From the NCBI RefSeq assembly GCF_002210295.1, contig NZ_MWQH01000001.1, positions 248,001 to 312,000 on the forward strand: a DNA stretch of 64,000 nt, read 5' to 3'. Positions 32,190-49,524 of this stretch are shown here, one piece after another. Origin of the DNA: Fibrobacter sp. UWB5. Lineage in GTDB: Bacteria > Fibrobacterota > Fibrobacteria > Fibrobacterales > Fibrobacteraceae. Under the pieces are notes generated by a model that worked only from the letters and a program-made list of their open reading frames with translations, was not told the DNA's origin and searched no databases. Each line of letters begins with the position of its first letter. Position 1 is the first letter of the stretch. The translations under genes and the position numbers were made by a program.

Positions 32190-32608
32190 TACATTTCGCT
32201 CCTGTATTTAATCCTGAAATGAGTTAATGCTTCACGCTCGGCTTTGGACCGACCATGCTGTTTGCCATTCGCGTCAATATAATTTCGCACATCTTTACCA
32301 TGTATGTCAAGATACAAATTATATGGAACACTTTTATCCTGCAATCGCAGATAACCTCCACCGATATCGGCTACTACAGAAATTTTCGTCTTTTCGTTAT
32401 CCCACTCGACCTTGTTGCCATGAACCTCCGCATGGGCACTGGGCGCAAATTGATCAATGACATTGTTGATGTTAACCGAGGTCCATTCTTCAGAATGGGC
32501 TATATTCCTTTTCTTGCCTTGCATGATTTTTTCCATTAATTCGGCGTCATGTTTAGCGATTTCCTTCTGGGTATCAACCGATGAAGAGTATACATCTTTT
32601 GAGTCCAT
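32189..32608 (-). CDS. Protein of unknown function, second gene of the RNA-flanked cassette
   Basis: 139 aa. The N-terminal half is charged and helical; the C-terminal half contains 'VVADIGGGYLRLQD', 'YLDIHGKDVRNYIDANGK' and the terminal HGRSKAEREALTHFRI. The conserved-looking His/Arg/Ser/Glu ending suggests an enzymatic or nucleic-acid-binding domain, but I cannot name it. Coupled to both neighbouring genes by overlapping start and stop codons. Confidence 0.6.
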   Translation of the reverse strand: MDSKDVYSSSVDTQKEIAKHDAELMEKIMQGKKRNIAHSEEWTSVNINNVIDQFAPSAHAEVHGNKVEWDNEKTKISVVADIGGGYLRLQDKSVPYNLYLDIHGKDVRNYIDANGKQHGRSKAEREALTHFRIKYRSEM

Positions 32609-33282
32609 TATATTTCCCTCCTTTGGGCAGATTGTGCATAGCTCCGAGTTCGATAATCTGTAACGACGTTATAGTCAACGCCTTGTTTCACCATCATTCG
32701 TTCGCATTCTTCTCTAAGTGGGCCATAGATTGTTAAATGCGAAGGTCTTGTAATCAAAAGTTTGGTCTTGAAGATGAATTCGTGTAGAGGCGTCATTCTT
32801 TTTGAGCATCCCAGCGTTCCCACAACATAGGGAATATTCTTCGGATAGGATTCCAGTGCAAATACAGTCTGCAAATCCCCTATTCTGAAATTGGGAATTA
32901 TCTTTTGGCCCGACAAAGCGACAAATGCTGTAGCAAGCTGGGAAAGCCATATGTTGAACTTTTGCCGTTGGAAAGACCATCTTATTCTAGGACTTAAGTC
33001 AAATCCACCGAAGCCTTTAAATTTTCCATATAATTTAATTTCGTCAAGAATGCAGCGAAGCCTTCTTTTTATCAAAACATCATCAGCGAACGAGCACAGC
33101 AAGCACTCGTTTGGATTCTTACAACAGCGAATCCTTTGGATTGGTTCGATGAGTGTAGGAGGTTCTTCAAGAATAACCTCCCTGGGAAATACGGGAAAAC
33201 CGTATCGGTTAAATGGCCATTTTGCCATTTTTAGTTTTGAGCGTAGCAAAATTGCCAACTCGTATAGATTTTTTATTTTCAT
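32608..33282 (-). CDS. DUF4417-like protein, first gene of the RNA-flanked cassette
   Basis: 224 aa. The middle matches what I recall of DUF4417: 'GKFKGFGGFDLSPRIRW', 'SGQKIIPNFRIGD', 'VVGTLGCSKR' and 'ITRPSHLTIYGP'. Members occur in phages and mobile elements and have no assigned function. A Cys-rich segment (RCCKNPNECLLCSF, about 51-64) could bind metal. AAAGGA precedes the ATG. Structured RNA copy 2 ends 105 nt upstream on the same strand. Confidence 0.7.
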   Translation of the reverse strand: MKIKNLYELAILLRSKLKMAKWPFNRYGFPVFPREVILEEPPTLIEPIQRIRCCKNPNECLLCSFADDVLIKRRLRCILDEIKLYGKFKGFGGFDLSPRIRWSFQRQKFNIWLSQLATAFVALSGQKIIPNFRIGDLQTVFALESYPKNIPYVVGTLGCSKRMTPLHEFIFKTKLLITRPSHLTIYGPLREECERMMVKQGVDYNVVTDYRTRSYAQSAQRREI

Positions 33283-33387
33283 AAATAATCCTTTTAGGCC
33301 AGATTTTCCACTTCCACAATAGGCCTATAATTGTGAATAGGGAGTCGGCCCTTATTCAGCAACTTGCCACGAACATTTTCAATGAAT

Positions 33388-33598
33388 AAAAAAGGCGTGG
33401 AGTCGAACAGCTTATCATCGCTGCGGGCTACCACACCCTTACCAATCAATAAGCACAAAACGACCCACGCCCCAAATTTGGACGTAAGCATTCGTCTTAT
33501 TCTTGATTGGTTTGAAAGTGGTAGTTTCAGCGATAAGAATAAGAGACGTATCTCAAAATTTCCGGTCGCTCCGCACCATTCGGTACGGGGCTATGTCA
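33388..33598 (-). ncRNA. Structured RNA element, copy 2 (leader of the DUF4417 cassette or independent RNA)
   Basis: Same architecture as the copy at 31586-31792, on the minus strand. The hairpin at 33571-33588 has one G-C pair replaced by G-U. The tetraloop hairpin (33543-33554) is GAGA-UACG-UCUC, so the loop stays in the UNCG class. Helix A (33528-33537 with 33411-33423) and helix C (ACCAATCAA at 33503-33511 with its complement at 33441-33449) have almost entirely different sequence from copy 1 yet still pair. Helix B, helix D and the pseudoknot arms (33461-33471 with 33394-33405) are conserved, and T6 follows. A -10-like TATATT-type stretch lies just upstream of the conserved 5' end. Confidence 0.85.
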
Positions 33599-33882
33599 AT
33601 GGGAAATATATCATTTTTTCCCGAGAAAAGGAGGTTCCCCGCCTGCGCGGGGAAGGCAAAAGGGGTGTTTTTTTTGGTATGAAAATTATGGTGTTCCGTC
33701 TTTTAGGTTCTAGGTAAGGATGGCGGGCTTGCGGTTGACGGCGTGCGCAAACATTACAGACGCTAAATAAAAAACACCGGTAACCTTCCTGCAATCCGGC
33801 ATCACCAGCCGGCGAGTGTTTTCCGATGCTTTGATATTAATATACATTTTTTTTAGCAAAAGTGAAGTCCCTTTGAAAAAAC
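33599..33882. other. Gene-free spacer with two hairpins
   Basis: No supported ORF. A strong hairpin TTCCCCGC / GCGGGGAA (33635-33654) is followed on the plus strand by T8 at 33668. On the minus strand, AAAACAC / GTGTTTT arms (33771-33777 with 33816-33822) enclose an inner GCCGG / CCGGC stem, a plausible terminator of the metallophosphoesterase transcript. Confidence 0.5.
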
Positions 33883-34605
33883 TTAAACGACTTTCACTAT
33901 TTCAGCAATGTCAAGCCCTTGGTATGCTGTTTTACCAAGGAACCCTTCGTAATGGTGGTGATAATGACCGTAAAACCAAAGTGGTGGTTTGATGGCTTTT
34001 AAAACATAATCAAGATAGCGGCGGGATTCAACAACCTGTTGCCAAGTGCTTTCGCCCACATGTTTATCTCTTTCGAGCATGGGGGCAAAAGATAACGGAG
34101 CCTCATGCGACACGATGATATCGGCAGATTCCGGGAGGCCTTCTGTGATTTGCACGAGTGCTTCGTTTTGCCACCAAACACGCTTTGACGAGCCGTGTTT
34201 GATAAGCGATTCGTTTATTGTTCGGCGGGATTTTCGTGTGAGTGGGTCAATTAAATCGATATCCGTAGAAACGGCGCCACCGATGGGGTAAATGCGTTTG
34301 CCGCAAAGTTCAATCATTTTGTGATCGGGCAAAAAATGTAGGCGCTCGTAATCGTGCTGGCCGTCGAAAAACGCCGGGTCATCGTGATTTCCCCGAATGG
34401 TGTATAGGCAATTATCATTCGCTTCAAGTGCCGAGCGAATCTCGCGATACCGCACATCCATTGAATTCGGGCGGCCGAAACCGGCCCCGAAATCACCGAC
34501 AACGAGAATATCTGCGCACCGGATTTTTAGCCGATGCAAAGCGTCGTGAACCAGGCGTTTTATTTCGCCATGAATGTCGCCACAAATGTACAGATGTCGG
34601 TCCAT
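33883..34605 (-). CDS. Calcineurin-like metallophosphoesterase
   Basis: 240 aa with the dimetal signature motifs GDIHGE (9-14), GDFG (about 38-41), RGNHDD (about 71-76), a later 'VSHEAPLSF' and the C-terminal GHYHHHYEG. Substrates in this family range from phosphoproteins to nucleotides. Its ATG overlaps the stop of the Fic gene (TAATG), so the two are translated together. This invites the idea that it reverses or modulates the Fic modification, which is inference. Confidence 0.9.
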   Translation of the reverse strand: MDRHLYICGDIHGEIKRLVHDALHRLKIRCADILVVGDFGAGFGRPNSMDVRYREIRSALEANDNCLYTIRGNHDDPAFFDGQHDYERLHFLPDHKMIELCGKRIYPIGGAVSTDIDLIDPLTRKSRRTINESLIKHGSSKRVWWQNEALVQITEGLPESADIIVSHEAPLSFAPMLERDKHVGESTWQQVVESRRYLDYVLKAIKPPLWFYGHYHHHYEGFLGKTAYQGLDIAEIVKVV

Positions 34606-35135
34606 TACATCCCCAGCAGATTTGTGGCGAGTCTCACCATGGTTTCGCGTTCTTCGGGCTTGCTTTCGGCGATAAGCAGTGTGAGCGCCACCAGCGTTCC
34701 GTCAGCGATGTTCTTGGAACCGTCTGCTTTATAAAGCAGGCCGTTTCGCGATAAAAACCAAAGAAAAACGAAAGCCGCAATGCGCTTGTTGCCGTCGACA
34801 AAGGAATGGTTCTTGACTACCAAATAAAGGAGCATGGCCGCCTTGATTTCTGCGGTAGGGTAAAGTTCCTTGCCGCCGAAAGTCTGGTAGATTTGCCCTA
34901 GCGAGCTCTTGAACGAGGCGTCCTTTTCTGTGCCGAAGATATCGCTGTCGTTGAACATTTCCTTGAGAACGGCGATTGCTTCCATCGCCTCTTCGTAAGT
35001 AATGCGTTCGCCCGCATTCACGGCAGTGCTCTTGGGGTAAGCGAGTTGTTCGTGGTCATAACGATCAAGCGTTTCTAACGCCGGCCTAAAATCTGCGATA
35101 ACCGTCTGCAAAGCCAATGTCTCTTGTGTATTCAT
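34605..35135 (-). CDS. Fic/Doc-family protein
   Basis: 176 aa from ATG 35135 (an ATG at 35147 is also in frame). The Fic motif HSFVDGNKR (110-118) is complete, including the catalytic His, so AMP or phosphate transfer to a hydroxyl side chain is possible. No (S/T)xxxE(G/N) inhibitory helix is obvious. The N-terminal helical extension (about 1-75) resembles those of Doc-like proteins fused to a RhuM-type region. Followed directly by the metallophosphoesterase gene. Confidence 0.85.
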   Translation of the reverse strand: MNTQETLALQTVIADFRPALETLDRYDHEQLAYPKSTAVNAGERITYEEAMEAIAVLKEMFNDSDIFGTEKDASFKSSLGQIYQTFGGKELYPTAEIKAAMLLYLVVKNHSFVDGNKRIAAFVFLWFLSRNGLLYKADGSKNIADGTLVALTLLIAESKPEERETMVRLATNLLGM

Positions 35136-35218
35136 TTTATGCCCCATTTCAAATTAATGTATCATGTAAATATAACTGCGACATGCGACAAATGTTGCCG
35201 CACGCGCTAGAAGACGTT

Positions 35219-36007
35219 TTAGCTGCCATTTTTAGCTGACTCCCCAAATTCCTTCAGCGTCAGCTCGTTAATCATCGTTTCGAGGTCGCATTTTTCCCCG
35301 TCGCCGTGGAAATCGGCACCTGGTTTGGGGTCCGCATACCCCCCTTTGGCGACCTTCTTTTCGTATTCCACCTCGGCAAGCGTCCACTTGGCGATAATGT
35401 CCTTCGCGACCCTCTCAATGTCTTCGCAAAGCTTGCCCTGCAAAAACCAGTAATACTTGCCAAAACTGCGGTTGGCGACATGGGGCTCGCTCTTGCATAT
35501 GGGGCAGTATGCGGTTGCCTGGGAACCGCCCGAAAGCGGAGACCCGGCAAAGCTACGGATGACTGCCGTGCCCCCGCACTTGCAATTCACCTTGAACTGG
35601 TCGGTGTCCCAGACGCGGAGGAGGGTCGCCAGCTTGAGATTGATGGTAACGAAAGTGCCTGCAAAGCTGAACCACTTTGCTGTACTCAGGGGGCCGACAT
35701 AGAGCCCGCCGCCCTTGATTGCGTAATGTACATCCATGTTGGCGTAACGCGGGGTCGCAAGGATTTCGTCCTTGTGGCGCAAAATCAGGTCCAGCTTGTC
35801 GTAAAACAGCTTCTTTTTGCGCTCAAACCTTTTTTCTTGGAGTTTGCGCAGTTCCTCCTGTTCGCGGTTTTCTTGTTCCATTTCGTCGCTAATCAGCTTC
35901 AGGCCGGCAGCCTGTCGCTTGCACATAGAGGCGAAAGATTCGCGCTTGTTGTTCGGTTCCTGCAGGAACGGCGGGAAGGGTTTTGTATCGTCAATATGGA
36001 TAGCCAT
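35219..36007 (-). CDS. Protein with a zinc-ribbon-like motif, function unknown
   Basis: 262 aa from ATG 36007, which follows AAGGAGACAC. A charged coiled-coil segment (about 25-65) precedes a domain with CKCGG ... YCPIC (about 145-175), four Cys likely to bind zinc, and a C-terminal helical part. The protein appears cytosolic. I do not recognise the family. No close same-strand partner. Confidence 0.7.
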   Translation of the reverse strand: MAIHIDDTKPFPPFLQEPNNKRESFASMCKRQAAGLKLISDEMEQENREQEELRKLQEKRFERKKKLFYDKLDLILRHKDEILATPRYANMDVHYAIKGGGLYVGPLSTAKWFSFAGTFVTINLKLATLLRVWDTDQFKVNCKCGGTAVIRSFAGSPLSGGSQATAYCPICKSEPHVANRSFGKYYWFLQGKLCEDIERVAKDIIAKWTLAEVEYEKKVAKGGYADPKPGADFHGDGEKCDLETMINELTLKEFGESAKNGS

Positions 36008-36239
36008 AATGTGTCTCCTTGTTTGTTGTTGCTTGCCTATATATCGTTTTATTATGCATAAATGTAAATACATGCATAAATCTATTTAGAATATACAAAA
36101 ATAGGCTGACAAAAAGTGTCAATCTGCCATTTTGCATTTTTCAACCTTGCGACGATATATGTCGTATAGAAGCATTATTATTGTCCATGAACGCTTAAAA
36201 AGGAGGTTTTTTATATATATTAAGTGATAGAGGTTATTT

Positions 36240-37253
36240 ATGGCAGATATGACTCGTGGCGAACGTACGGTGCAGCTTTTTGCGCAGGTAATTTCGAATC
36301 CGACAAAAAAAAACAGCGTCGGCGACTTGATGGAATTGCTCAATATACCAGAAAGCGAACGACGCAATGTGCAGCGCGATATGCGCTTTTTGTCGGAGAT
36401 GGATGCCGGGCGATATGTCCAGCAAGAAAGCGTCGGCCGTACTTTTTATTATAGGTCCGCTCTGCATAATGCCGACAGGCTTTTGTTCCCGAATTTCGAG
36501 AACACTATGCTGCATTTCGTATTCCTGCGCCGTATTGCAAACATTTATCCGGCTACGAGCGAAATTATTACGCAGCTGTTGGAGCGAATTGAAAACAGTC
36601 TCCCGCCCAAAGAGAAAAAGTCTATTCAACAGCTTGGTTCAGAACTGAACAGCAAGATTCTCTTTATGGGCACGCCGCCTGATTTTGATGAAGATTCCAG
36701 CGAAAAAATCCGCGTGATTTTGCAGGCCATTCACGATAACCGTAAAATCGAAGTGGAATACATGACGGAATCGTCTTGCAAAAAGTCCAAGCGCATTCCG
36801 CTGATGGTAATCATTTACCAGAATGATCTTTATGTAGTCTGCCAGTCAATACAGCATGAGGGCGACACCTACACGCTCAAATTCCGCAGAATCAAGAGTG
36901 TCAAGCTCTTGAAAGAAACCTACGTGAGCGAGCCCCAAATCCTTGATAAGTTGCGCAGGCAGGTCATGTCGGGCGCCGCCTTCTTAAGCGGCCAGGAGCC
37001 CAAACTCCAGGACATCGAAATTGAATTCGAAAGCCATGCAAAGCTCTTCTTGCAAGAAAACCCCTTCAACCGATCCATGCAAATCGGCAAAACCAAAGAC
37101 GGAAAAATTACCGTCAAGATGAAAGCCGAATGCAACAGGATCCTTTTTAACTGGGTAGTCTCTTTTGCAGATGCCGCCCGCGTTATAAAGCCCGCTGGCC
37201 TCAAGACCATGCTGAGCGAATATGCCGATTATTTGAAAGAAATTTACGGGTAA
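36240..37253 (+). CDS. WYL-domain transcriptional regulator
   Basis: 337 aa: N-terminal winged-helix region (about 1-75, with 'DLMELLNIPESERRNVQRDMRFL'), a central helical part, a WYL domain (about 160-225, with KIEVEYMTES and DLYVVCQSIQ) and a C-terminal WCX-like part. WYL proteins sense ligands, often nucleic acids or nucleotides, and many regulate defence loci. Its position in the accessory region fits that. No operon partner on the same strand; the weak GAGG at 11 nt is the only ribosome-binding candidate. Confidence 0.88.
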   Translation: MADMTRGERTVQLFAQVISNPTKKNSVGDLMELLNIPESERRNVQRDMRFLSEMDAGRYVQQESVGRTFYYRSALHNADRLLFPNFENTMLHFVFLRRIANIYPATSEIITQLLERIENSLPPKEKKSIQQLGSELNSKILFMGTPPDFDEDSSEKIRVILQAIHDNRKIEVEYMTESSCKKSKRIPLMVIIYQNDLYVVCQSIQHEGDTYTLKFRRIKSVKLLKETYVSEPQILDKLRRQVMSGAAFLSGQEPKLQDIEIEFESHAKLFLQENPFNRSMQIGKTKDGKITVKMKAECNRILFNWVVSFADAARVIKPAGLKTMLSEYADYLKEIYG

Positions 37254-37279
37254 GGGATTCTTTTCTCATATGGTACTTC

Positions 37280-37909
37280 CTATGCGGCTAAGGCGAGTCG
37301 GATTTCTTCGGCAAGATGGTTGCTGGAATCATCTTGAACGGCTTTTCTGATGGCTTTGAGCTGGTTGTAGATTGTGGCGCGGGTGCAGCCTGTCGCTTCG
37401 GCGACGGCTACGATTTCGCCCTTGTCCGTAGCCATGCAAGCCTCATGGTATTCCTTCAGGCATTTTTGAAGAGCCGGCTTTCCTTTGAGACGGTTCGTGA
37501 TCTTCTTGAGAATCGCTCGATGGCCAATCTCTTTGTCGAAATCGGCCGCGTAGGCAGATTCCTTGATGTCGTCTACGCCGACAGCTTCGAAATGGGAACG
37601 CTGGGAGTTCCTGCGCTTTTCGCTTAAGGTGTGCCAGATGACATGCTGGATCATGTAACCTAGGAAATCGTCATTGCGAGTCGGGTCAAATTTTAAGATC
37701 TGACTGCGGAAAAGCAGAAAGATTTCGCCCATGATGGCGCGACGGCGTTCAGCAGAGGAAAGCCCGCGATACGAGAAATCGGACTGGCGGAAGCTTGCCT
37801 GGGAAACGGCAGCCGACAGGATTGCATCGCCATAGCAACTCCAAAGTTGGTCAATTGCTGTTTTTTTGCCGCTTTGGGCGAGACGGATAAGGAGTTCCGT
37901 ATTAGTCAT
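37280..37909 (-). CDS. Sigma-70-like regulator with C-terminal helix-turn-helix
   Basis: 209 aa from ATG 37909, which has GAGGAAG at good spacing; ATGs at 37915 and 37927 are also in frame. 'ILKFDPTRNDDFLGYMIQHVIWHTL' resembles sigma region 2, and VAEATGCTRATIYNQLKAIRK is a region-4-type helix-turn-helix. It looks like a divergent ECF/sigma-70-like factor, though the possibility of a phage-type regulator remains. Convergent with the WYL gene. Confidence 0.75.
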   Translation of the reverse strand: MTNTELLIRLAQSGKKTAIDQLWSCYGDAILSAAVSQASFRQSDFSYRGLSSAERRRAIMGEIFLLFRSQILKFDPTRNDDFLGYMIQHVIWHTLSEKRRNSQRSHFEAVGVDDIKESAYAADFDKEIGHRAILKKITNRLKGKPALQKCLKEYHEACMATDKGEIVAVAEATGCTRATIYNQLKAIRKAVQDDSSNHLAEEIRLALAA

Positions 37910-38111
37910 GGGCATAAGCTTCCTCATGAAATGAAAATTTGAGACGCGTGGAAACGTCCGGATAGGGACATCCGGGGAAAAGGGGACTTTTCACAAAAAA
38001 AGGCTAAAAATTAATGTGTTTTGTTAGAATAAGCCCCATTTTGCCGGGGGAGCAACAAAAAATGACCAAAAACTCTCATTCATCAGCGCCTCTAAATATA
38101 AATAAAAGTGG

Positions 38112-39285: not shown

Positions 39286-41967
39286 CTAAATTTTTATGCA
39301 GCGGACAGAAAAACACCTTTCTGAATTAGAACGTCTCTCGATAATCGCAATGTTTTCCGTGATATGCATATATGGATACGAATCTCTATCATACTCATCT
39401 TTTTCTGAATCTAAAGTCCAAAAAAACGCACCACCACCACAATACATTTGATAATGCTTGTCGTAATAACCTTCAGGAAGAGCTCCAAATCCGTTTTCAA
39501 TTTCTTCCGTCACGTACGGGGATAAGCCTCCAATCCATTCTTTAATTCTCTTTAAGGAATCTGCATTTCCTTTTGTTTCTGCAAGTAATTCTTCAAAATC
39601 TCTTTTGTGAGGAATCCTCCAACCCTCAGGAGCAACGCCCATTAATGCCGCTCTACTGTAGAAAAGTCCCTTGTCCGAGATATGGGTTTGCAATAGTGGA
39701 TCATCGTTTCTATATCTATAAGCTCCATCTGTTTCGAATCGAAGATTTTCTGCCATCCAAACCTGATTTCCTATTTTTATCGTTTGATAGCGAGTTCCAT
39801 CTCTTTTATCAACTAAAAATCCCAAATTTGATTTATATGCAGGTTCTTTTGGCTTTTCGTTATAAAACTGATTACGGTCTTGAACCGCTAAGTTGGCTAT
39901 TGGATTGTTGGCGCAAAGAATATAATCACTTAGATATTTCTCCTCCCAAGAATCATCATTTCCGCGGCTTTCCTCATATTCGTTCATTCCCCTTTCTAAA
40001 CTATCTGGATCACTATCTGATTCAATTTCAGAAATGGATGAATTTTCAGCTGCGTCGTAAACACGCGAATCATGCAGGGCTGGCGGACACGGAGACTCGT
40101 CTTCTTCCGCCTTTTCTATTTTAGGTTCATCATCTTTAGGCGTATTCTCTTTAGGTGTGGTAGGTTCGTTGTCTTCGTCCTTATGAAGTATTTTTTCTAG
40201 TTCTTTTTTAAGAATGACTTTGCGTTTCTCAAAGAATTCACCAAAATTTGTCAGGTCCAAATCGGTGTCGGGAATTAGATGATCAATTTTGTAACTTTCG
40301 CCTTGTCTAGATACATATTCTTTTAATGAAAGGTCGCTTTTAACCTTGTTTTCAGTAGAATTCAACATAGATAAATTTGGCATTGTATTGCACAAACGTT
40401 TCCATTTTTCCCATGTGTCATAGTGTATATTGTCTGGAGCCATCCCAGAAAAACGAACACGGGCATGAAGATGGTCAACATCAAAAGTAACTTCAGGATT
40501 AAATGCAATTTCATTATCTAAGCGCTCCGAACTGATTAACTGAAGGGCCCTTTCACAAACCGTATCGCCTTTTTGCAAATTAAGAATATTTTCTATTTTC
40601 TCTTCGGTTACCCTTAAATCAGGATTGCTATCCAATATTTGCATCGTCAACCTAGGGTAGCCGTTATAACGCGACTTATTCATTTCGTTTTTTAATTTAG
40701 CCAATTTATTCGTAGTCGCATTGCTATAGTATTTGAATAGAATTGCTCGGCTTATATAGGCTTCGACCGCATCTTTACACAATAGGTAATCGCTGGAATA
40801 TGCAAAGTCATCACCGTTCTTTTCAGGAAGAATATGGTTGTAGACAAGGTAAACTATAGGGATCAATATGTTCCAGCGGTTTCGAAAGTCCTCTATATGA
40901 AGACGCCTTATTGAATATACAAATTCTTGCGTTTTTAAGAGAGCGCTCTTTATTTTCTCCCAATTAATGTGCATTTGATATACCAAATCACGGTGGATAT
41001 TGGCATTAACATCTTTTTCATAAAGAATTACTGATAATCGTATAAAAAAATCTAATGGGAAATCCTTGTATTCTTTAAATTTCTCTTGATGAAGTTTTCC
41101 TTTACGTTTTTTGTAGTCAAATACTTGACACAAAGATTCGTGAGGTTTCTTCCAAAATGCACCAATAATAGCTTCTCCAATTTCGCTTTTCGTTAGTTTT
41201 GTTCCGCCATTGTTGAACCTCACAAACATGTCCAAAGCGTCGTTTTCTGTGCCAGTAATTTGTTGATATTGGATAATCTTTTTATCGTATATTTTTTCGC
41301 ACAACTTTGCCAAGATTTTTCTTGCGTATTCACGACTTGCTTCAGGGACACTTTTTAGAACTTTGTCAATTTCGTCATTCCTTGTTTCCTGAGAATAGAA
41401 CTTAGTGCTTATGATTCTTTTTATATTGAACAATGTGGGAGATTGATAACATTCTTCATAAAAACCAATATCAAACTTTGTTTGGACGTCGTCATCAGCG
41501 TTTTGCTCTTTCACGGCGCCTTTGTCCAATTGGATACATAAATCTACTGGTTCCCCAGCAAATTTTGTTTTTCTTCCTTTTATCAGATTGACTTGTCCAA
41601 AAAGGGTTATATATAGTGAGGTCAATCGTTGCTGCCCATCGAGTACGGCGCTATCCAATTTTTCATTTTCTGACCATTTAATTTCTTCTCCATCGTTATC
41701 GTGTTCCGATACATTTTTATTGCTACGAAATAATGCGTTCTTTATAAATTGGAAAAAAACGGTATCTTTAGCGATATTCTCTTGTCCTTGTTCAATTTTC
41801 CAAAATAAAAATGTCGATATAGGATAGTCCGACAATATCGAATCCCACAAACACGAAACCTGATCTACCGACCAAACATAACTTCTTTGAAATGCAGGAA
41901 TAACAAAGCCGTTGCATTGTATTTTTTTCATAGCTTCATAGATAGATGTCTCGCCATGAATAATCAT
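39286..41967 (-). CDS. GmrSD-like DUF262/HNH protein fused to a C-terminal FISUMP domain
   Basis: 893 aa, AAGGAG before the ATG, no signal peptide. Residues 1-130 carry DUF262 hallmarks: VIPAFQRSYVW (22-32) and LDGQQRLTSLY (109-119). A long helical middle leads to an HNH-like site, DVDHLHAR (496-503) with NLSMLNSTENKVKSDL (531-546), as in DUF1524-type nucleases of GmrSD modification-dependent restriction enzymes. After an acidic linker (about 595-690), residues 718-893 form a FISUMP (TIGR02145) domain: QTIKIGNQVWMAENLRF, APEGWRIPHKRDF and the terminal FSVRCIKI. FISUMP domains are usually in exported proteins, so this cytosolic fusion to a defence-type nuclease is unusual. Confidence 0.88.
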   Translation of the reverse strand: MIIHGETSIYEAMKKIQCNGFVIPAFQRSYVWSVDQVSCLWDSILSDYPISTFLFWKIEQGQENIAKDTVFFQFIKNALFRSNKNVSEHDNDGEEIKWSENEKLDSAVLDGQQRLTSLYITLFGQVNLIKGRKTKFAGEPVDLCIQLDKGAVKEQNADDDVQTKFDIGFYEECYQSPTLFNIKRIISTKFYSQETRNDEIDKVLKSVPEASREYARKILAKLCEKIYDKKIIQYQQITGTENDALDMFVRFNNGGTKLTKSEIGEAIIGAFWKKPHESLCQVFDYKKRKGKLHQEKFKEYKDFPLDFFIRLSVILYEKDVNANIHRDLVYQMHINWEKIKSALLKTQEFVYSIRRLHIEDFRNRWNILIPIVYLVYNHILPEKNGDDFAYSSDYLLCKDAVEAYISRAILFKYYSNATTNKLAKLKNEMNKSRYNGYPRLTMQILDSNPDLRVTEEKIENILNLQKGDTVCERALQLISSERLDNEIAFNPEVTFDVDHLHARVRFSGMAPDNIHYDTWEKWKRLCNTMPNLSMLNSTENKVKSDLSLKEYVSRQGESYKIDHLIPDTDLDLTNFGEFFEKRKVILKKELEKILHKDEDNEPTTPKENTPKDDEPKIEKAEEDESPCPPALHDSRVYDAAENSSISEIESDSDPDSLERGMNEYEESRGNDDSWEEKYLSDYILCANNPIANLAVQDRNQFYNEKPKEPAYKSNLGFLVDKRDGTRYQTIKIGNQVWMAENLRFETDGAYRYRNDDPLLQTHISDKGLFYSRAALMGVAPEGWRIPHKRDFEELLAETKGNADSLKRIKEWIGGLSPYVTEEIENGFGALPEGYYDKHYQMYCGGGAFFWTLDSEKDEYDRDSYPYMHITENIAIIERRSNSERCFSVRCIKI

Positions 41968-42160
41968 GTAAATCTCCTTTCTTGTTTGACAAACAGGTCT
42001 GTTTTTTTCCGTTATGAGCCCGCTTTCAAGATTATGTGTTTAAAATATAGTTCCGAGGTAGAGCTCTTGTCAAAGAAAGTGTACTTGCGATGGATGTTAT
42101 GCCTGTTAGTAAATTCTTTTGCGAATTAAAGATCTATACCGATTTCTGAAGTCGCTGCGC

Positions 42161-42337
42161 TCAGTCCACATTCTCGAAATCTTCTTTTTCTGCTCCGCAG
42201 TGGGGGCAAATCCAATCATCGGGTAAGTCCTGGAACGGTGTTCCTGGCAGGGCGTCTTCGCCGGCTTCAGGATCCCCGTATTCGGGGTCGTAAATGTAGT
42301 TGCAGATGTCGCATTGGTATCTGTCGTATTCGTTCAT
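42161..42337 (-). CDS. Rubredoxin
   Basis: 58 aa from ATG 42337 with AAGGAG upstream. Two CxxC knuckles, [12 protein letters not shown] and [13 protein letters not shown], bind one iron; the spacing is that of classical rubredoxin, with the typical [12 protein letters not shown] between. One-electron carrier in the cytosol, often for peroxide or oxygen detoxification in anaerobes. A longer upstream in-frame extension lacks any sign of being translated. Confidence 0.95.
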
Positions 42338-42420
42338 GGTGAATCTCCTTGATGTATTCCTAGATTTATCGCCTTTGAAGGCGATATTTGTCAATTTTTT
42401 TATAAAATTTTTAAAGATTG

Positions 42421-42449
42421 TTGACAAATAGAATTGTAATTGCGATATT
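42421..42449 (+). promoter_or_regulatory. Promoter of the recCBD operon, probably leaderless
   Basis: TTGACA (42421-42426), 17-nt spacer, GATATT (42444-42449), then six nt to the ATG at 42456. The start point is expected at about the A of the ATG. No Shine-Dalgarno is visible. The geometry is identical to the promoter at 25460-25488. Confidence 0.6.
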
Positions 42450-42455
42450 CATAGT

Positions 42456-45400
42456 ATGAAACTACACCTGAAGTTTGCCCTGAATTTGGAAAATCTTGCT
42501 GATGAAATGATCGACGAGATTTTGAAGCATTGGCGTGATCCGTTTAATGCTCCTATTGTCATTTTCCCGGACCCCAAATTGGAACAGTGGTTCCGTTTGC
42601 GTTGGGTGCAAAAGAAGGGCGTGCTTGCGAATCTGAACAAGAGTACGATTGACCGGTTCCTTGTTGATATTCTGGTTGGGAAAAATCCCAAATTCAAGAA
42701 GCTTTCGTCTGACATGCTCGCCAACGTTATTATTGCATACCTGCAGCAAAAAACAGACGGAACGTTTAATTACGAACTTTTGGGTGAAAGCGTCAAGGCA
42801 TATCTCGAAAACGATGGCGTCGTTGACGAAAACAGACTGTTTGATTTTGCGAATGTGATGGCGGGCCTTTTCCTGGAGTACGAAACCAGTCGCCCGAGCG
42901 GTTTTCTTTCGGATTCAGAAACGGGCAAAAGTGTGAAGGGAATTCTGGATTGTTGGAAACAAGGTGCGCTGAAAGATTTCTTTATTACGCGCGATGGTAC
43001 GCCAGCTGCAAATGAAGAATGGCAACGCAAACTTTATTCGGCTTTATTCCATGCAGGCGATAATGAGAAATCGCTGTTGACACAGGTGTTTGAAAAGTCT
43101 GCCGCAAAGAGCGGCGAAAACATTACTTATTTGACACTTCCGTATTTGTACGAGGCCTGCAAGGCTGAATTCAATTACGACAGCGATCTTCCGGTCTTTA
43201 TTTTTGGCCTTTCGGGCATGGGGCAGTTTTACCGTGTGATTCTGCAGAAGTTTGCAGAAAAACATGATGTTTACGCTTACATTCAAAACCCCTGTATGGC
43301 GTTCTGGGAAGATTGTAGTGGCGTGCGTAAACCGCCCGAAAGCATGAAATTGACTGTTCCGAGGCTTTCGACAGATCCTGATGACGAAAGCGAACTGATT
43401 GATGAGAATGAAAACGAATTGCTGCGTTATTGGGGCAAGGCTGGTCGCGATAATATCAAACTTTGGAGTATCGCTACCGATTACAACTTCATGACGGCAG
43501 AAGATTCCATTATCGATCGGAATAAAGAAATGCCTTGCGACACGTTGCTGCATCAAGTGCAACAGATGGTGGCTCAGCGCAAGAATGTGTTCTGCGACGG
43601 CTCGAACATCCTTAAAAAGGTCCCGTTTGAAAAAGATGAATCATTTGGCGTAACGACGGCGCCTTCAAAAATGCGCGAAGTGGAAGCGCTTCATTCCCGC
43701 ATTTGCAAGCTGCTTTCTGAAAAAGATGCGCAAGGGAACCCGAAGGCGACAATTGCCGATATTCTTGTGGTGTCCCCGAATATTGATGACTACCGCACGG
43801 CGATTTTCCAGGTTTTTGACCAGACTCGCGATGGATTCCACATTCCGTTTAATATTGTGGATTCTGCTGCTAGCGATTCGCTTACGGCAAATGCACTTTC
43901 GATTCTATTCTCTATCCGCGAAAAGGGAACGCTTTCGAGGCCCGACTTCTTTGCACTCGTTCGCAATCCTGTGGTTCAAAATGTCCGTGGTATTTTGGCC
44001 GACGAGGTTTCCGATTGGGAATCTTGGACCAGCAATATGAACGTGTACCGCGACCGTTATGTCGAAGATAACGGCGAAACTCGCCGCGAAGAATCTTGGA
44101 TTACGGCCACTAGGCGTTTGTTGCTTTCCCGCTTCAGCTACGGCGGCGTTGAAACTGATTCGGGCGACATTCATCCGTATAGCGATATCAGTAGTGCCGA
44201 CGACAATTCGTTATATCGCTTTGTTGATGCGATTGACGTACTTGAAAACTGGATGGCGCTTGGAACCGATGGCGTCGCCGAAGACGACCTTTCGGCTGTT
44301 TACCAGTTCTTGGATTCTTGGCTTTGTATGGGTGACCCTCCCAAGGAACTGGTGGGCGAAAGCATTATTTATCAGTCGGTCACATCGGCTCGCGAAAATC
44401 TGGAATACCAGTACCTAGCCGGTAACGCTACGATTTCGTTCAAGTGCATTTCGCAGACGTTGATGTATGCTGCCCGCGGCTCGGAATACAGTTGCGGGAA
44501 CCTGTTCATTAACGGGCTTACTTTCATGAAGTTTGCACCGAACCGTATTGTTCCGACCAAGTATCTATTCTTTATTGGGGCCGATGCAGCGAACTTCCCG
44601 GGTGTGCGGAATACGAATACCCTTGATTTGCGCAAGTCGTGCCGCCCCTGGCCCGGCGACGATTCTGTCGTCAGCAGAAACCGCTACGCATTCCTTTGCC
44701 AGCTGATGAGCACTTCGGAAGGATTCTTCATTAGCTATGTGAACAAGGATTTGCGAAAAGATGAAGATTTTTATCCGTCGTCTGTTGTGAACGATGTTCG
44801 AGGATTCTTGAAAAATGCTGCCAAGGCTGCCGGCGTAACGGATGCAGAAGTTCTCAAGAACATGTGGCCCGATGATAGCGTTCCGCTAGATGAGACGCGT
44901 CCGTGGGAAATGCTATTTACCCAGCGCGAAATTCGCAATAAAAAGGCTCAGCTTGAATTCGGGAATGACTGCGACGTGACCAGTTTTACGCCCGCAGCAG
45001 ATAATATTGAACCTAGGCGTCTCCCAGAACAGGTGAGCGACTACCAGTTCAAAAAATTCCTGAGTGATCCGTTTGAATTCCGCGTTGACGAAATGATGCA
45101 TATTGAAGACGAAAAGGAAGACCCGGAAAAGACGGAATATGAGCCGATTTCTATTGACAAGTTGCAGAACGCCATTTTACAGCGCATGCTTACGGCGCAA
45201 AAACTGGGTGTTTTTGAAAATGATTATTTGACAACGGAAAAGGATATCCTCTCTTATGCGCTTTCTAAGGGATTGCTGCCTAAGGGCGCCTTTAGTGCAA
45301 GTAATTGGGCAAGTGTGTGCAATTCTGCCGAAGTGTTTGCTCGTTCTATTGAAAAATTTTACGACAAGAAAAAGTTCCAGTATGGTAGACGCGCGGTAGA

Positions 45401-45980
45401 ACTTCAGATGAATGGATGGATTCTGATGGGGCAAATTCCTTTATTTGTTCGTGATGAACATACCGTTCACTTGATTTCAATGGCGTCGTCAACCCATCAG
45501 CGTCATTTTTTGAAGCCTTATATTCATGCGCTTGCGCTCATCTGCGAGGCTGGACAGAAGAATGAGCCTATTCCTGATGTGACCATTGAATGCTTCTCTT
45601 TGACGGAGTGGCGGGCAAAACGAATTTTGAAAACGCCTGAACAGGCCGCAGAATTGCTGGATAATCTCTACCAGAAGATGTTCGCAGCGCAAGAAGGCGA
45701 AAATGGCAATCGCTATAGTAAGGTCATTCCGATTGATTTGATTGATAACGAGAAAATCCTGACTTATGACGATTATATCAATGCGTTTGAGGGCAAACGT
45801 ACTCCCTGGGATTTATTTGCTGGTCGCAAGTTGTTTGATATTGAAAAAGTCTGTGGATTTACAGAAGAAAACTTTGAGACGCTTTGGTTCGAAGAAGTAA
45901 CCGCCATTAAGAATATGGCTCCTGATTTGTGGAAAATCGAAGAAGATATGGTGGAGGGTATCAATGCTGAAGAACTTTGA
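42456..45980 (+). CDS. recC: Exodeoxyribonuclease V gamma subunit (RecC)
   Basis: 1174 aa, close to the 1122 of E. coli RecC. The N-terminus has the RecC feature 'IVIFPDPKLEQWFRLRWVQKKGV', and the inactivated helicase-like repeats and nuclease-like C-terminus follow. RecC holds RecB and RecD together, splits the incoming duplex and scans for Chi. First gene of the recC-recB-recD operon; its stop overlaps the recB start by 17 nt. A leaderless start is suggested by the promoter spacing. Confidence 0.93.
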   Translation: MKLHLKFALNLENLADEMIDEILKHWRDPFNAPIVIFPDPKLEQWFRLRWVQKKGVLANLNKSTIDRFLVDILVGKNPKFKKLSSDMLANVIIAYLQQKTDGTFNYELLGESVKAYLENDGVVDENRLFDFANVMAGLFLEYETSRPSGFLSDSETGKSVKGILDCWKQGALKDFFITRDGTPAANEEWQRKLYSALFHAGDNEKSLLTQVFEKSAAKSGENITYLTLPYLYEACKAEFNYDSDLPVFIFGLSGMGQFYRVILQKFAEKHDVYAYIQNPCMAFWEDCSGVRKPPESMKLTVPRLSTDPDDESELIDENENELLRYWGKAGRDNIKLWSIATDYNFMTAEDSIIDRNKEMPCDTLLHQVQQMVAQRKNVFCDGSNILKKVPFEKDESFGVTTAPSKMREVEALHSRICKLLSEKDAQGNPKATIADILVVSPNIDDYRTAIFQVFDQTRDGFHIPFNIVDSAASDSLTANALSILFSIREKGTLSRPDFFALVRNPVVQNVRGILADEVSDWESWTSNMNVYRDRYVEDNGETRREESWITATRRLLLSRFSYGGVETDSGDIHPYSDISSADDNSLYRFVDAIDVLENWMALGTDGVAEDDLSAVYQFLDSWLCMGDPPKELVGESIIYQSVTSARENLEYQYLAGNATISFKCISQTLMYAARGSEYSCGNLFINGLTFMKFAPNRIVPTKYLFFIGADAANFPGVRNTNTLDLRKSCRPWPGDDSVVSRNRYAFLCQLMSTSEGFFISYVNKDLRKDEDFYPSSVVNDVRGFLKNAAKAAGVTDAEVLKNMWPDDSVPLDETRPWEMLFTQREIRNKKAQLEFGNDCDVTSFTPAADNIEPRRLPEQVSDYQFKKFLSDPFEFRVDEMMHIEDEKEDPEKTEYEPISIDKLQNAILQRMLTAQKLGVFENDYLTTEKDILSYALSKGLLPKGAFSASNWASVCNSAEVFARSIEKFYDKKKFQYGRRAVELQMNGWILMGQIPLFVRDEHTVHLISMASSTHQRHFLKPYIHALALICEAGQKNEPIPDVTIECFSLTEWRAKRILKTPEQAAELLDNLYQKMFAAQEGENGNRYSKVIPIDLIDNEKILTYDDYINAFEGKRTPWDLFAGRKLFDIEKVCGFTEENFETLWFEEVTAIKNMAPDLWKIEEDMVEGINAEEL

Positions 45981-48900
45981 TATTAATGAGTTCCATCTTG
46001 GAAATAATCTGTATGTTGATGCTTCGGCTGGAACTGGTAAAACGTATACCATTCAACAGCTGGTGGCAAAACTTGTGCGTGGCGAAGGTAACCATGCCGG
46101 CATTCCGCTGTCTAAGATTTTGATTGTGACCTATACTGATAAGGCCACGGGTGAACTCCGGGATCGTATTCGCCAAAAGATGGAAGAATGCCTTGCCGAA
46201 GAAAACCTGGAATGCTACCGTGAAGCATTGCAAAATATTCATACAGCACCGATTTTCACCATTCATTCTTTTTGTCAGAAGGTTTTGCACGACTTCGCGT
46301 ACGAGGCGGGGGCATCCTTTAATTTGGAAGTGGTTGCAGATGAAGATATCAAAAATTTGATTCAGCGCCTGATTCGCGACAAGTGGTCTTTTGAAACAGA
46401 GTTCATGGATTTGGTGAATTCTTCAAATTTCAATATGGACTTGTTTGTCAAGAATTTCGTGAATGCGACCAAGTATAAGTTGCTGAATCGCAAAACGAAA
46501 TGTTATGTTCCCAATTTTGGCTCGCTAGATGCTGTTTTTGATTTTTGCCCTGAGGCCCGTGCCGCGTGGAATGTTCTGCTCAAGAATAAGGACAAGGTTC
46601 ACCAAGAAAAGAAAACGACTAAGCCAAAGTGTATTTCTGCTCTTATTGAAACAATTCAAGCTTATGATGGCACGAAAGCTCTGTTTTCGGGGACTTCTTA
46701 TGGCTCAAAATGGCAGAATATTTGGGATTCTGATGAGTTGAATGCTGCGATTGACACGATGATTAGGGTCAAAGACAAGCATCTAGAAAGGGTCTCTATT
46801 AAGGGGGATCAGAAGTTTATCTTTAACCATGTGGATGAGCTTGTAGAATTATGGCTAAAAGAAAAACGCCAGAAGAAGGCTCAATCCTTCAACGACATGA
46901 TTAACGACGTCCACGATTCCATAATGAATGGTGATGGAAAACTGGTGCAGAAATTGCGCGAGAATTACCGTTATGCCATTATTGATGAATTCCAGGACAC
47001 GAACCAATTGCAGTGGGATATTTTCAAGACAATCTTCTTGGATAGCGATGATAACAATATCGTTGTTGTGGGCGACCCTAAACAGTCGATTTTCTCGTTC
47101 CAAGGAGCCGATGTCGGCGTTTACCGCACGGCAATTGGTGAAATAAAAGAACTAAACGGAAGGCGCCTTTCAACGAATTATCGTTCAAGCGACGATATTA
47201 TCAATGCTTGCAATGAACTATTTAAGAAAGATTTCCTTGAAGGCGATGAATTCTTGGAATCTGACGTACCGGGCGATAAACTAAAGAAAAGTGCACCCAC
47301 TTTGAATGGTAACCCCACGCCACCGTTGTGGATTTCAAAAATCTACAACGAATTTGAATTTGCTGAATTTGCTGTGCGTAAAATTGTTGAATGTTGCTCG
47401 CCTGATCCCCAAAATAAAGATAAGACGGCTTTGCAGATTTTTGACAAGGACAAGAAAGAAATGCGAAATGTCCGTTTCTCGGATTTTGCCATTCTTTCTC
47501 GTACCCGAACTGAAATGACTGCTTTGGAAGATGCCATGGCGCAAGTGGGTGTTCCGTATGCCCGCTACAAAGACACGAACTTGTTCTATGGAAAAGAATG
47601 CTCCCATTGGATTTCATTTTTGAAAGCTCTTGATGCCCCTGATTTTTCTAGTTGGAATCGCAAGTTCTTGAATGAGGCTTTGATTACGGACTTTTTCAGG
47701 GTGCCCCTTGAACGTGTTGAAGACGAGTCGTTTATCTATCCGACTAGTCGCATTATGAAGTTATTCGTTGGCTGGCGTCAGCTCGTTGCGAAACGCCGTT
47801 GGGCGGAACTGCAAGAAAGTATTTATCAAGAAACGGAAATTGACAAGTATTTGAGTACCCCTGCCACATTGCAGCAATTGGCAAAAATCAAGCAAATTGG
47901 AACGTACATTTTTGACTACCTGTATAACAATCGCGTTTCCCTTGAAGAGGTTGTAAAGCACCTGCAGGGGTTGGCTAGTGCCTCCGAAGGTGTAGATGAT
48001 ACCGATGGAAACTTGGTCGCAAAGGGGAGTGATTTTGATGCTGTGAACCTCATGACGATTCACTCGTCCAAGGGTTTGGCTTTCCCGATAGCCATTATTA
48101 CGGGTGGCCTTCGTGGCGATAATAATCAACCTGGCAACGATCCTTATGCATTTAGCCTTGATGGCGAAAAATGCATCGGTTTTGATAAGGATATCTCAAA
48201 GAAAACGAGTTTCGAGGAATGCCATGCGGAATGGCGTAGACTCATGTATGTGGCGTATACTCGCGCAGAATCGTTGATGATTGTTCCGCAGTATAGCATT
48301 TGGTATGATAAGGAAAAGACATCCATTAATCATGGCTTTCCATTTGCGTTCTTGGCGGTTGCAATTGCGCGCCTGTCTCAGACTGAATTCGCTCGATTGC
48401 AAGAAGACGAAAATTTGTCTTCCGGTTTGTGGGCATACAAAAAGACTGTCGCCCAAATCTTGCATAACGCAAAAGACGAAATGCCCGACAATAGCAAATT
48501 GCCGGATTTCGATTCCTTGCAGCGCAAGGTGAATAACGCTTGTATTTACCAGTATTCTTATTCAAGCTTGGCTTCTAAAAAGCGAGTGCTTGAAGCCCGC
48601 GAAGAATTCGTTGACAACGAAGAAATCTCTGTCGACGGCAACCGTGCTAACCGTGAAGACTTTATCGAAGCGAGCGGCGGAACTAATAGCATCATGATTG
48701 ATGACGCTTCTGCATTGGTGCAGCCCTGCGTAAATTACGACAAGAATGCTCCGATTGCAAACGTCGCGAATTACCCGCGGGGTGCAAACTTGGGTGATGC
48801 CTTGCACAAGGTCTTTGAAAATCTGGATTTTGAAACCGTCGGAAATCTTCCCGACGAGAATGCTGCCTGCAACAACACCGAACTCCGCAACTTGATTGCC

Positions 48901-49524
48901 GAAACGTACCAAGGCAATTCTATCCATATTCAGGAACATCCTGAATGGAATGATTTGACGACGGGCTTTATTTGGAATACCATGAATGCGGAACTTCCGG
49001 AAATTCACGGAAGTGCGGTTACCGGGAAGACTTTCTGCCTTAAAGATTTGCCCGCAGCCACTCGTCGCGCCGAAATGGGCTTCCACATGGATAGCCGTAA
49101 TTCAAAAGACGCCTCTTGGATGAACAGCCTTTGCAAGGGCTTTATTGACTTGATGTTTGTCCGCAAGGGTGACGACGGCGAAGATTATTATTCGATTCTG
49201 GACTGGAAATCCGACGTGATGGATGACCCGGATTACAGCGACAAGGATGCGCTTGCGCATAAAATCGAAGAGGAATATTCCATTCAGCGAGTGCTTTATA
49301 GCTATCTGTTGATTAAGTGGCTAAAACAGTTCTATGATGATCTTGATGAACAGCAGATTTTCGAAAAGCATTTCGGCGGCATTTACTATGCGCTTGCTCG
49401 CGGCACACGCGCCGGAACTTGCAACGGTATTTATTGCCAAACATGGAAGAGTTATAGTGATCTTGAAAAGAGCTACCGCAATGTTGCTGCCTTAATGAAG
49501 CGTAGCGCGAAGGAGTCGGCATGA
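45964..49524 (+). CDS. recB: Exodeoxyribonuclease V beta subunit (RecB)
   Basis: 1186 aa, near the E. coli length. UvrD/Rep-type 3'-5' helicase with Walker A DASAGTGKT (19-27), IIDEFQDTN, VGDPKQSIFSFQGAD and the later VAYTRAE; C-terminal RecB nuclease domain with KGFIDLMF and YSILDWKSD (Asp and Lys of the active site). It drives one strand and provides the nuclease of the RecBCD complex that processes double-strand ends and degrades foreign linear DNA. Overlaps recC and recD. Confidence 0.96.
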   Translation: MLKNFDINEFHLGNNLYVDASAGTGKTYTIQQLVAKLVRGEGNHAGIPLSKILIVTYTDKATGELRDRIRQKMEECLAEENLECYREALQNIHTAPIFTIHSFCQKVLHDFAYEAGASFNLEVVADEDIKNLIQRLIRDKWSFETEFMDLVNSSNFNMDLFVKNFVNATKYKLLNRKTKCYVPNFGSLDAVFDFCPEARAAWNVLLKNKDKVHQEKKTTKPKCISALIETIQAYDGTKALFSGTSYGSKWQNIWDSDELNAAIDTMIRVKDKHLERVSIKGDQKFIFNHVDELVELWLKEKRQKKAQSFNDMINDVHDSIMNGDGKLVQKLRENYRYAIIDEFQDTNQLQWDIFKTIFLDSDDNNIVVVGDPKQSIFSFQGADVGVYRTAIGEIKELNGRRLSTNYRSSDDIINACNELFKKDFLEGDEFLESDVPGDKLKKSAPTLNGNPTPPLWISKIYNEFEFAEFAVRKIVECCSPDPQNKDKTALQIFDKDKKEMRNVRFSDFAILSRTRTEMTALEDAMAQVGVPYARYKDTNLFYGKECSHWISFLKALDAPDFSSWNRKFLNEALITDFFRVPLERVEDESFIYPTSRIMKLFVGWRQLVAKRRWAELQESIYQETEIDKYLSTPATLQQLAKIKQIGTYIFDYLYNNRVSLEEVVKHLQGLASASEGVDDTDGNLVAKGSDFDAVNLMTIHSSKGLAFPIAIITGGLRGDNNQPGNDPYAFSLDGEKCIGFDKDISKKTSFEECHAEWRRLMYVAYTRAESLMIVPQYSIWYDKEKTSINHGFPFAFLAVAIARLSQTEFARLQEDENLSSGLWAYKKTVAQILHNAKDEMPDNSKLPDFDSLQRKVNNACIYQYSYSSLASKKRVLEAREEFVDNEEISVDGNRANREDFIEASGGTNSIMIDDASALVQPCVNYDKNAPIANVANYPRGANLGDALHKVFENLDFETVGNLPDENAACNNTELRNLIAETYQGNSIHIQEHPEWNDLTTGFIWNTMNAELPEIHGSAVTGKTFCLKDLPAATRRAEMGFHMDSRNSKDASWMNSLCKGFIDLMFVRKGDDGEDYYSILDWKSDVMDDPDYSDKDALAHKIEEEYSIQRVLYSYLLIKWLKQFYDDLDEQQIFEKHFGGIYYALARGTRAGTCNGIYCQTWKSYSDLEKSYRNVAALMKRSAKESA

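Follow-up and report, generated by a model that had tools for sequence, protein, structure and literature searches.

A BrxU/GmrSD-like protein, predicted to be a type IV restriction enzyme and bearing a FISUMP domain at its C-terminus, is encoded by Fibrobacter sp. UWB5 within a 64,000-nucleotide stretch of contig NZ_MWQH01000001.1 (positions 248,001 to 312,000; hereafter the window). The DUF262-FISUMP fusion is real, as both parts match their respective profiles far above the database cut-offs. We put at about an even chance the reading that the FISUMP tail is a cytoplasmic lectin-fold binding module, attached by a flexible tether, which controls when or where the enzyme cuts. The fused gene and its parts are arranged as follows (window coordinates).

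39286..41967 (-): complete gene of 893 aa, consisting of a BrxU-type GmrSD enzyme, a linker and a FISUMP domain (open frame, PADLOC, NCBIfam)
41179..41925 (-): DUF262/GmrSD_N NTPase domain, residues 15-263 (Pfam PF03235 at 104.7 bits; cut-off 33.2)
40180..41964 (-): whole GmrSD/BrxU-like enzyme part, residues 2-596 (PADLOC HEC-05; phmmer match to BrxU 7p9k)
41626..41640 (-): DGQQR motif, residues 110-114 (invariant in seven aligned homologues; aligned to BrxU Q101/R102)
40465..40482 (-): HNH-type nuclease motif DVDHLH, residues 496-501 (alignment to BrxU; D498 and H499 correspond to BrxU D474 and H475)
39817..40179 (-): linker, residues 597-717, acidic (33 of 121 residues are D or E)
39292..39816 (-): FISUMP (Fib_succ_major) domain, residues 718-892, with a predicted C-type-lectin fold (Pfam/NCBIfam, AlphaFold2, VIA-align to TvpA 2y3c)
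42044..42073 (-): promoter-like site TTGACA-18-TATATT ahead of the fusion gene (consensus scan, 11/12)

Domain composition of the fusion protein

The reading frame comprises 893 uninterrupted codons, from ATG through to the stop. The preliminary description of this DNA had placed DUF262 motifs and an HNH-like site in the first two thirds of the protein, and these were recovered as IPAFQRSYVW (residues 23-32), LDGQQRLTSLY (109-119) and DVDHLHAR (496-503), with the GmrSD_N profile of Pfam matching residues 15-263 (E 9e-30) and the HEC-05 model of PADLOC matching residues 2-596 (E 3e-90). In the C-terminal part, the FISUMP model TIGR02145 (NCBIfam) matched residues 718-892 (E 2e-32, 113.3 bits against a cut-off of 41.65), almost the same borders as those of the C-terminal 175 residues (718-893) assigned to this domain beforehand, while the Fib_succ_major model PF09603 (Pfam) was matched along its entire length (profile positions 1-187 of 187) by residues 730-892 (E 7e-21, 75.8 bits against a cut-off of 33.9). 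Domain searches against Pfam, NCBIfam and PADLOC thereby confirmed the enzyme part as well as the FISUMP part. No hydrophobic signal stretch was seen at the N-terminus, in agreement with the initial observation that a signal peptide is absent. Promoter-like sites such as that ahead of the gene were observed in the region only at chance frequency (consensus scan).

The enzyme part resembles BrxU

Among solved structures, BrxU (7p9k) was the one significant phmmer match, covering residues 11-583 of the fusion protein (E 5.6e-28). Together with the HEC-05 and GmrSD_N matches, this bears out the proposed assignment to the GmrSD-type restriction proteins and identifies BrxU as the closest characterised enzyme. 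BrxU, from plasmid pEFER of Escherichia fergusonii (PDB 7p9k, 7p9m; PMC8565348), is a DUF262 plus DUF1524 enzyme, a layout that the fusion protein probably shares, and its mutants S42A/D, Q101A, R102A, D474A and H475A were shown to lose both phage resistance and DNA cleavage (PMC8565348). All five of these positions, at which mutation inactivates BrxU, are identical in the fusion (S43, Q113, R114, D498 and H499) and invariant across seven homologues, as is H501 of the DVDHLH motif.

With the GmrSD_C model (DUF1524, PF07510), the fusion protein was not listed at E<=1, and an orthologue from a sheep-rumen Fibrobacter (L004) came close to the cut-off of 23 bits with a score of 20.5 (E 5e-4); the nuclease region is therefore assigned on the basis of HEC-05 and of the alignment to BrxU, in which the nuclease domain and its DH motif are clear. 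Judged by homology, the enzyme part would represent a competent BrxU-type enzyme, for which the predicted capacity to cut DNA is well founded, and the conserved residues suggest that such cutting would be NTP-dependent and directed against DNA with modified cytosines.

Conversely, BrxU is a 587-residue chain without the extra C-terminal domain present in the fusion, and it travels with BREX, whereas no BREX gene was seen near the fusion (window about 32.6-49.5 kb read). The candidate defence family HEC-05, although nearly matched over its full length, likewise stops before the linker and the FISUMP domain. The C-termini of GmrSD proteins are known to vary and to include extra domains such as DUF4268, DUF4357 and DNA_binding_1 (PMC4619093); the fusion resembles these homologues in bearing an accessory domain in the variable C-terminal part, but FISUMP is not among the accessory domains named for them.

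The tail is a cysteine-poor FISUMP domain with a predicted lectin fold

The isolated FISUMP domain was modelled using AlphaFold2 with 98 relatives, resulting in a mean pLDDT of 83. VIA-align placed TvpA (2y3c) first, with a Z score of 9.8 over 161 residues, followed by Lcl (Z 7.9), TaqVP (7.8), human FGE (7.1) and then many lectins. Foldseek returned weak matches (best E 0.047, none at E<=0.001), the leading ones being mostly C-type lectins, so that the lectin-type fold is assigned by virtue of VIA-align. The C-type-lectin-like fold that had been anticipated for this domain is well supported as a structural prediction. A full-length AlphaFold2 model, based on seven alignment rows, exhibited a mean pLDDT of 40, too low for a reading of how the tail packs on the enzyme. 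At the sequence level, the tail agrees with 25 of the 30 strongly conserved FISUMP columns, and cysteines account for two of the five mismatches.

Cysteine content was compared across a redundancy-thinned set of 97 FISUMP domains from the genus. The CPxGW cysteine, which 92 of 92 other domains possess, was found neither in the fusion nor in any of the four further signal-less domains, and two common cysteines that precede it were likewise missing in these five proteins, leaving the fusion tail without three of the four common FISUMP cysteines. By simple counting, the split at the CPxGW cysteine would arise by chance once in 64 million cases, a figure to be read in the light of the relatedness of the sequences, which perhaps represent two or three independent losses. 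The common cysteines probably form disulphides in exported FISUMPs, and their loss fits life in the reducing cytoplasm; it also argues against an accidental fusion.

The preliminary description had suggested that a normally exported domain was recruited. Exported Fibrobacter FISUMP proteins belong to the same domain family as the tail, and nearly all intact FISUMP frames of this genome were found to encode a signal or lipoprotein peptide (simple rule). These exported proteins combine such a peptide with the conserved cysteines, whereas the tail, devoid of a signal and of three of the four cysteines, resembles a small, signal-less FISUMP type instead. The best reading is that the tail belongs to this signal-less, cysteine-poor type, of which stand-alone members are found next to Fic in a defence hotspot.

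Occurrence and composition of the fused gene

The survey for other DUF262-FISUMP proteins that had been proposed at the outset yielded none in 168 genomes of the phylum, among 392 relatives, in GTDB contig scans (the reach of which is close relatives only) or on viral contigs, while in phages and plasmids no place covers 80% of the fusion query. Among the fetched DUF262 loci of the genus, including frames of 806-921 aa, FISUMP was observed in the fusion only. The open literature searched contained no account of a restriction enzyme bearing a FISUMP or lectin-fold domain, consistent with the earlier statement that no described fusion of this kind was known. The L004 orthologue (59% identical, 641 aa) and the Lachnospiraceae homologues (571-572 aa) are devoid of both the FISUMP tail and the 121-residue linker.

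Given that the genome holds 68 FISUMP matches (census of fetched stretches; signal peptides called by a simple rule of our own), the tail could be a passenger, added to the C-terminus of an otherwise normal BrxU-type enzyme with neutral or slightly beneficial effect, in a FISUMP-rich lineage in which chance fusions arise. Such an accretion would account for a fusion that was met once and for an orthologue without a tail, and is in keeping with the known variability of GmrSD C-termini (PMC4619093). It is less easily reconciled with the retention of the conserved FISUMP columns, or with the base composition of the tail, which is that of the enzyme half and not that of most native FISUMPs: GC3 is 0.287 in the tail and 0.32-0.34 in the enzyme half, compared with a mean of 0.52 (sd 0.10, lowest 0.29) in the 56 further FISUMP domains that the genome encodes, and with 0.49-0.61 in the neighbouring recC/recB, WYL and Fic genes. 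With the fusion met in one genome, we regard a passenger role as possible, if rather doubtful. The low GC3 shared by the tail and the enzyme half, unlike that of nearly all other FISUMPs of the genome, argues against an accidental fusion and indicates that the gene most probably arrived as a unit.

The data do not support a recent fusion in place with one of the genome's own FISUMP genes, as the nearest domain is 37% identical to the tail and the composition of the tail is unlike that of most native ones.

Candidate ligands of the tail

We are not aware of a ligand for a FISUMP domain; many domains of the C-type-lectin fold bind proteins. The lectin-type fold and the preference of BrxU for glucosylated cytosine DNA (PMC12409352) would be compatible with a tail that reads DNA modification, binding sugars on glycosylated phage DNA and thereby adding affinity or specificity to the GmrSD enzyme. 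However, the canonical C-type-lectin sugar/calcium motifs EPN/QPD and WND are absent from residues 717-893, which weakens the earlier idea of a modified-DNA sensor. As proteins are the ligands of many domains with this fold, and as BrxU works without such a domain, a sugar-reading tail is considered unlikely.

The best solved match of the tail, TvpA, is the variable protein of a diversity-generating retroelement (DGR), and in gut bacteria Fib_succ_major domains are among the known targets of such elements (PMC4159848). In the human-gut variable proteins, a domain of the same family forms the variable binding end and is diversified by the retroelement (PMC4159848), whereas the genome encoding the fusion has no detectable reverse transcriptase (no RVT_1 match). 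A template-like repeat of the FISUMP-domain DNA was also absent from the genome, the best other match being 56 bp at 77%, and a DGR-diversified, hypervariable sensor was accordingly rejected for this genome. A lectin-fold domain has been proposed as the sensor in DGR-linked conflict systems (PMC7159879, PMC10907252), where an FGE-type C-type-lectin fold is located terminally on a putative defence protein; a predicted C-type-lectin fold takes this position here. Those systems combine STAND or vWA parts with DGR variable repeats, while the effector of the fusion is a type IV restriction enzyme and no DGR is present.

Stand-alone signal-less FISUMPs adjoin Fic genes

Two genes within 5 kb of the fusion have paralogues in a second island of the genome.

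34605..35147 (-): Fic/DOC gene (Pfam Fic), sharing 72% identity with the second-island Fic located ahead of a signal-less FISUMP
36240..37253 (+): WYL-domain regulator (Pfam WYL/WCX), sharing 43% identity with the WYL gene in the C1:438-452 kb defence hotspot

Apart from the fusion, the FISUMP of this genome that clearly lacks a signal is a 209-residue protein encoded 9 bp behind the Fic gene at C1:440.5 kb. The order of Fic/DOC followed closely by a signal-less FISUMP was observed in 11 Fibrobacter genomes (L107:1992-3164, equivalent to G000:C1 about 440 kb, with the stand-alone FISUMP at L107:2535-3164; L191-L195, L197, L199, L200 and L203-L205). In genome G026 the order is swapped, a divergent signal-less FISUMP (L206:2060-2686, minus strand) lying first, on the other side of Fic, which is an independent arrangement. 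In total, 13 of 168 genomes hold the stand-alone signal-less protein, although these carriers are close kin and do not represent 13 independent cases. Both paired genes are under purifying selection, with dN/dS values of 0.07 for FISUMP and 0.08 for Fic, which excludes hypervariation of the pair.

The island that harbours the pair contains variable cargo, including IetA-like AAA, DrmC-like PLD, LeoA-like dynamin pairs and a WYL regulator, and in six of the 13 carriers GmrSD genes of three types were found within a few kb of the pair. That signal-less FISUMPs, constrained by purifying selection, neighbour Fic within a defence hotspot argues against accident, and it is possible that Fic and the signal-less FISUMP constitute a new defence or toxin-antitoxin pair. 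The fused tail groups with these Fic-linked FISUMPs (SH-aLRT 83 in a quick tree and 48/71 in a careful tree), a kinship that is weakly supported.

The Fibrobacter defence-cargo hotspot (L107, L234-L245) lies between recurring flanking genes. In genome G048 (L196/L245), the stand-alone FISUMP behind Fic is split into two frames. The G018 island contains a second signal-less FISUMP (L238:9213-9779, minus strand) beside a member of the gene family of L244:7080-7616, for which no Pfam or PADLOC match was found. Furthermore, a signal-less protein combining a double zinc ribbon with FISUMP (L025/L246; L246:5151-5939, plus strand) is encoded in genome G022, and lacks the common FISUMP cysteines.

The pairing with Fic raises an alternative in which the tail serves a cellular partner (Fic or another neighbourhood gene) as a docking or inhibitory module, and loss of that partner upon infection would free the nuclease in a toxin-antitoxin-like manner. 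Such docking would be in line with the adjacency of stand-alone signal-less FISUMPs and Fic in 11 genomes, with the swapped order in G026 (L206) and with the position of a close relative of the hotspot Fic 4 kb from the fusion. However, five other genes separate the window Fic from the fusion, co-location in an island is common to many defence genes, and the carriers are closely related; this docking logic is deemed improbable.

On one side of the fusion, the segment at window positions 32608-37927 encompasses a DUF4417-like gene, a phosphoesterase gene overlapping Fic, an unknown gene of 284 aa, the WYL regulator and an unknown gene of 215 aa; this cluster possibly constitutes another mobile or defence segment. 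On the other side (42161-49524), the order rubredoxin, recC, recB is kept in genome G002, which lacks the fusion and has tyrA-like genes adjoining rubredoxin. The fusion is located at a variable edge beside recBC.

Proposed mode of action and implications

An assembly or frame artefact joining two genes, a concern raised in the preliminary description, is the least likely of the rival explanations and very improbable: although the fusion is unique among the sequences searched, its unbroken frame is embedded in a contig of 1.03 Mb from a genome that is 100% complete, both halves share an unusual GC3, and the tail lacks the signal peptide that nearly every other FISUMP gene of the genome encodes.

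According to the favoured reading of a restriction enzyme governed by a cytoplasmic FISUMP module, the DUF262 domain would bind and hydrolyse nucleotide, as in BrxU, and the DUF1524/HNH region would cut DNA with modified cytosines, an activity shown for BrxU, with the BrxU-type core presumably undergoing NTP-driven dimer-monomer cycling. The tail, on its acidic tether of 120 residues, may bind a ligand, most likely a protein, which could be a component of the phage, one of its anti-restriction proteins or a partner from the host, and ligand binding may gate, localise or protect the nuclease. The domains, the conserved residues, the predicted fold, the composition, the cysteine loss and the neighbourhood are directly supported, whereas enzyme activity, a ligand and gating by the tail are inferred; conversely, the fusion has been met in one genome, and its orthologue and other homologues have no tail.

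More broadly, an exported lectin-fold domain may have been turned into a cytoplasmic immune module in Fibrobacter, with signal-less, cysteine-poor FISUMPs serving as ligand sensors or adaptors for defence effectors and adding a protein-sensing trigger to the recognition of DNA modification; we offer this generalisation tentatively, as possible but on balance doubtful. While extra C-terminal domains of GmrSD proteins and DGR-linked lectin-fold sensors were already known, the presence of a FISUMP/lectin-fold domain on a restriction enzyme appears new in the light of the open literature searched. The conserved pair of Fic and signal-less FISUMP in a defence hotspot offers a hint at the function of cytoplasmic FISUMPs, together with a set of loci, and this cytoplasmic family beside Fic lends the idea of a sensing tail more substance than the fusion would by itself. 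Modified DNA is thought to be the sole recognition target of GmrSD enzymes. A GmrSD enzyme with a lectin-fold tail makes the gating of such enzymes by a second signal testable, and the tail may represent a new kind of trigger or sensor for BrxU/GmrSD enzymes.
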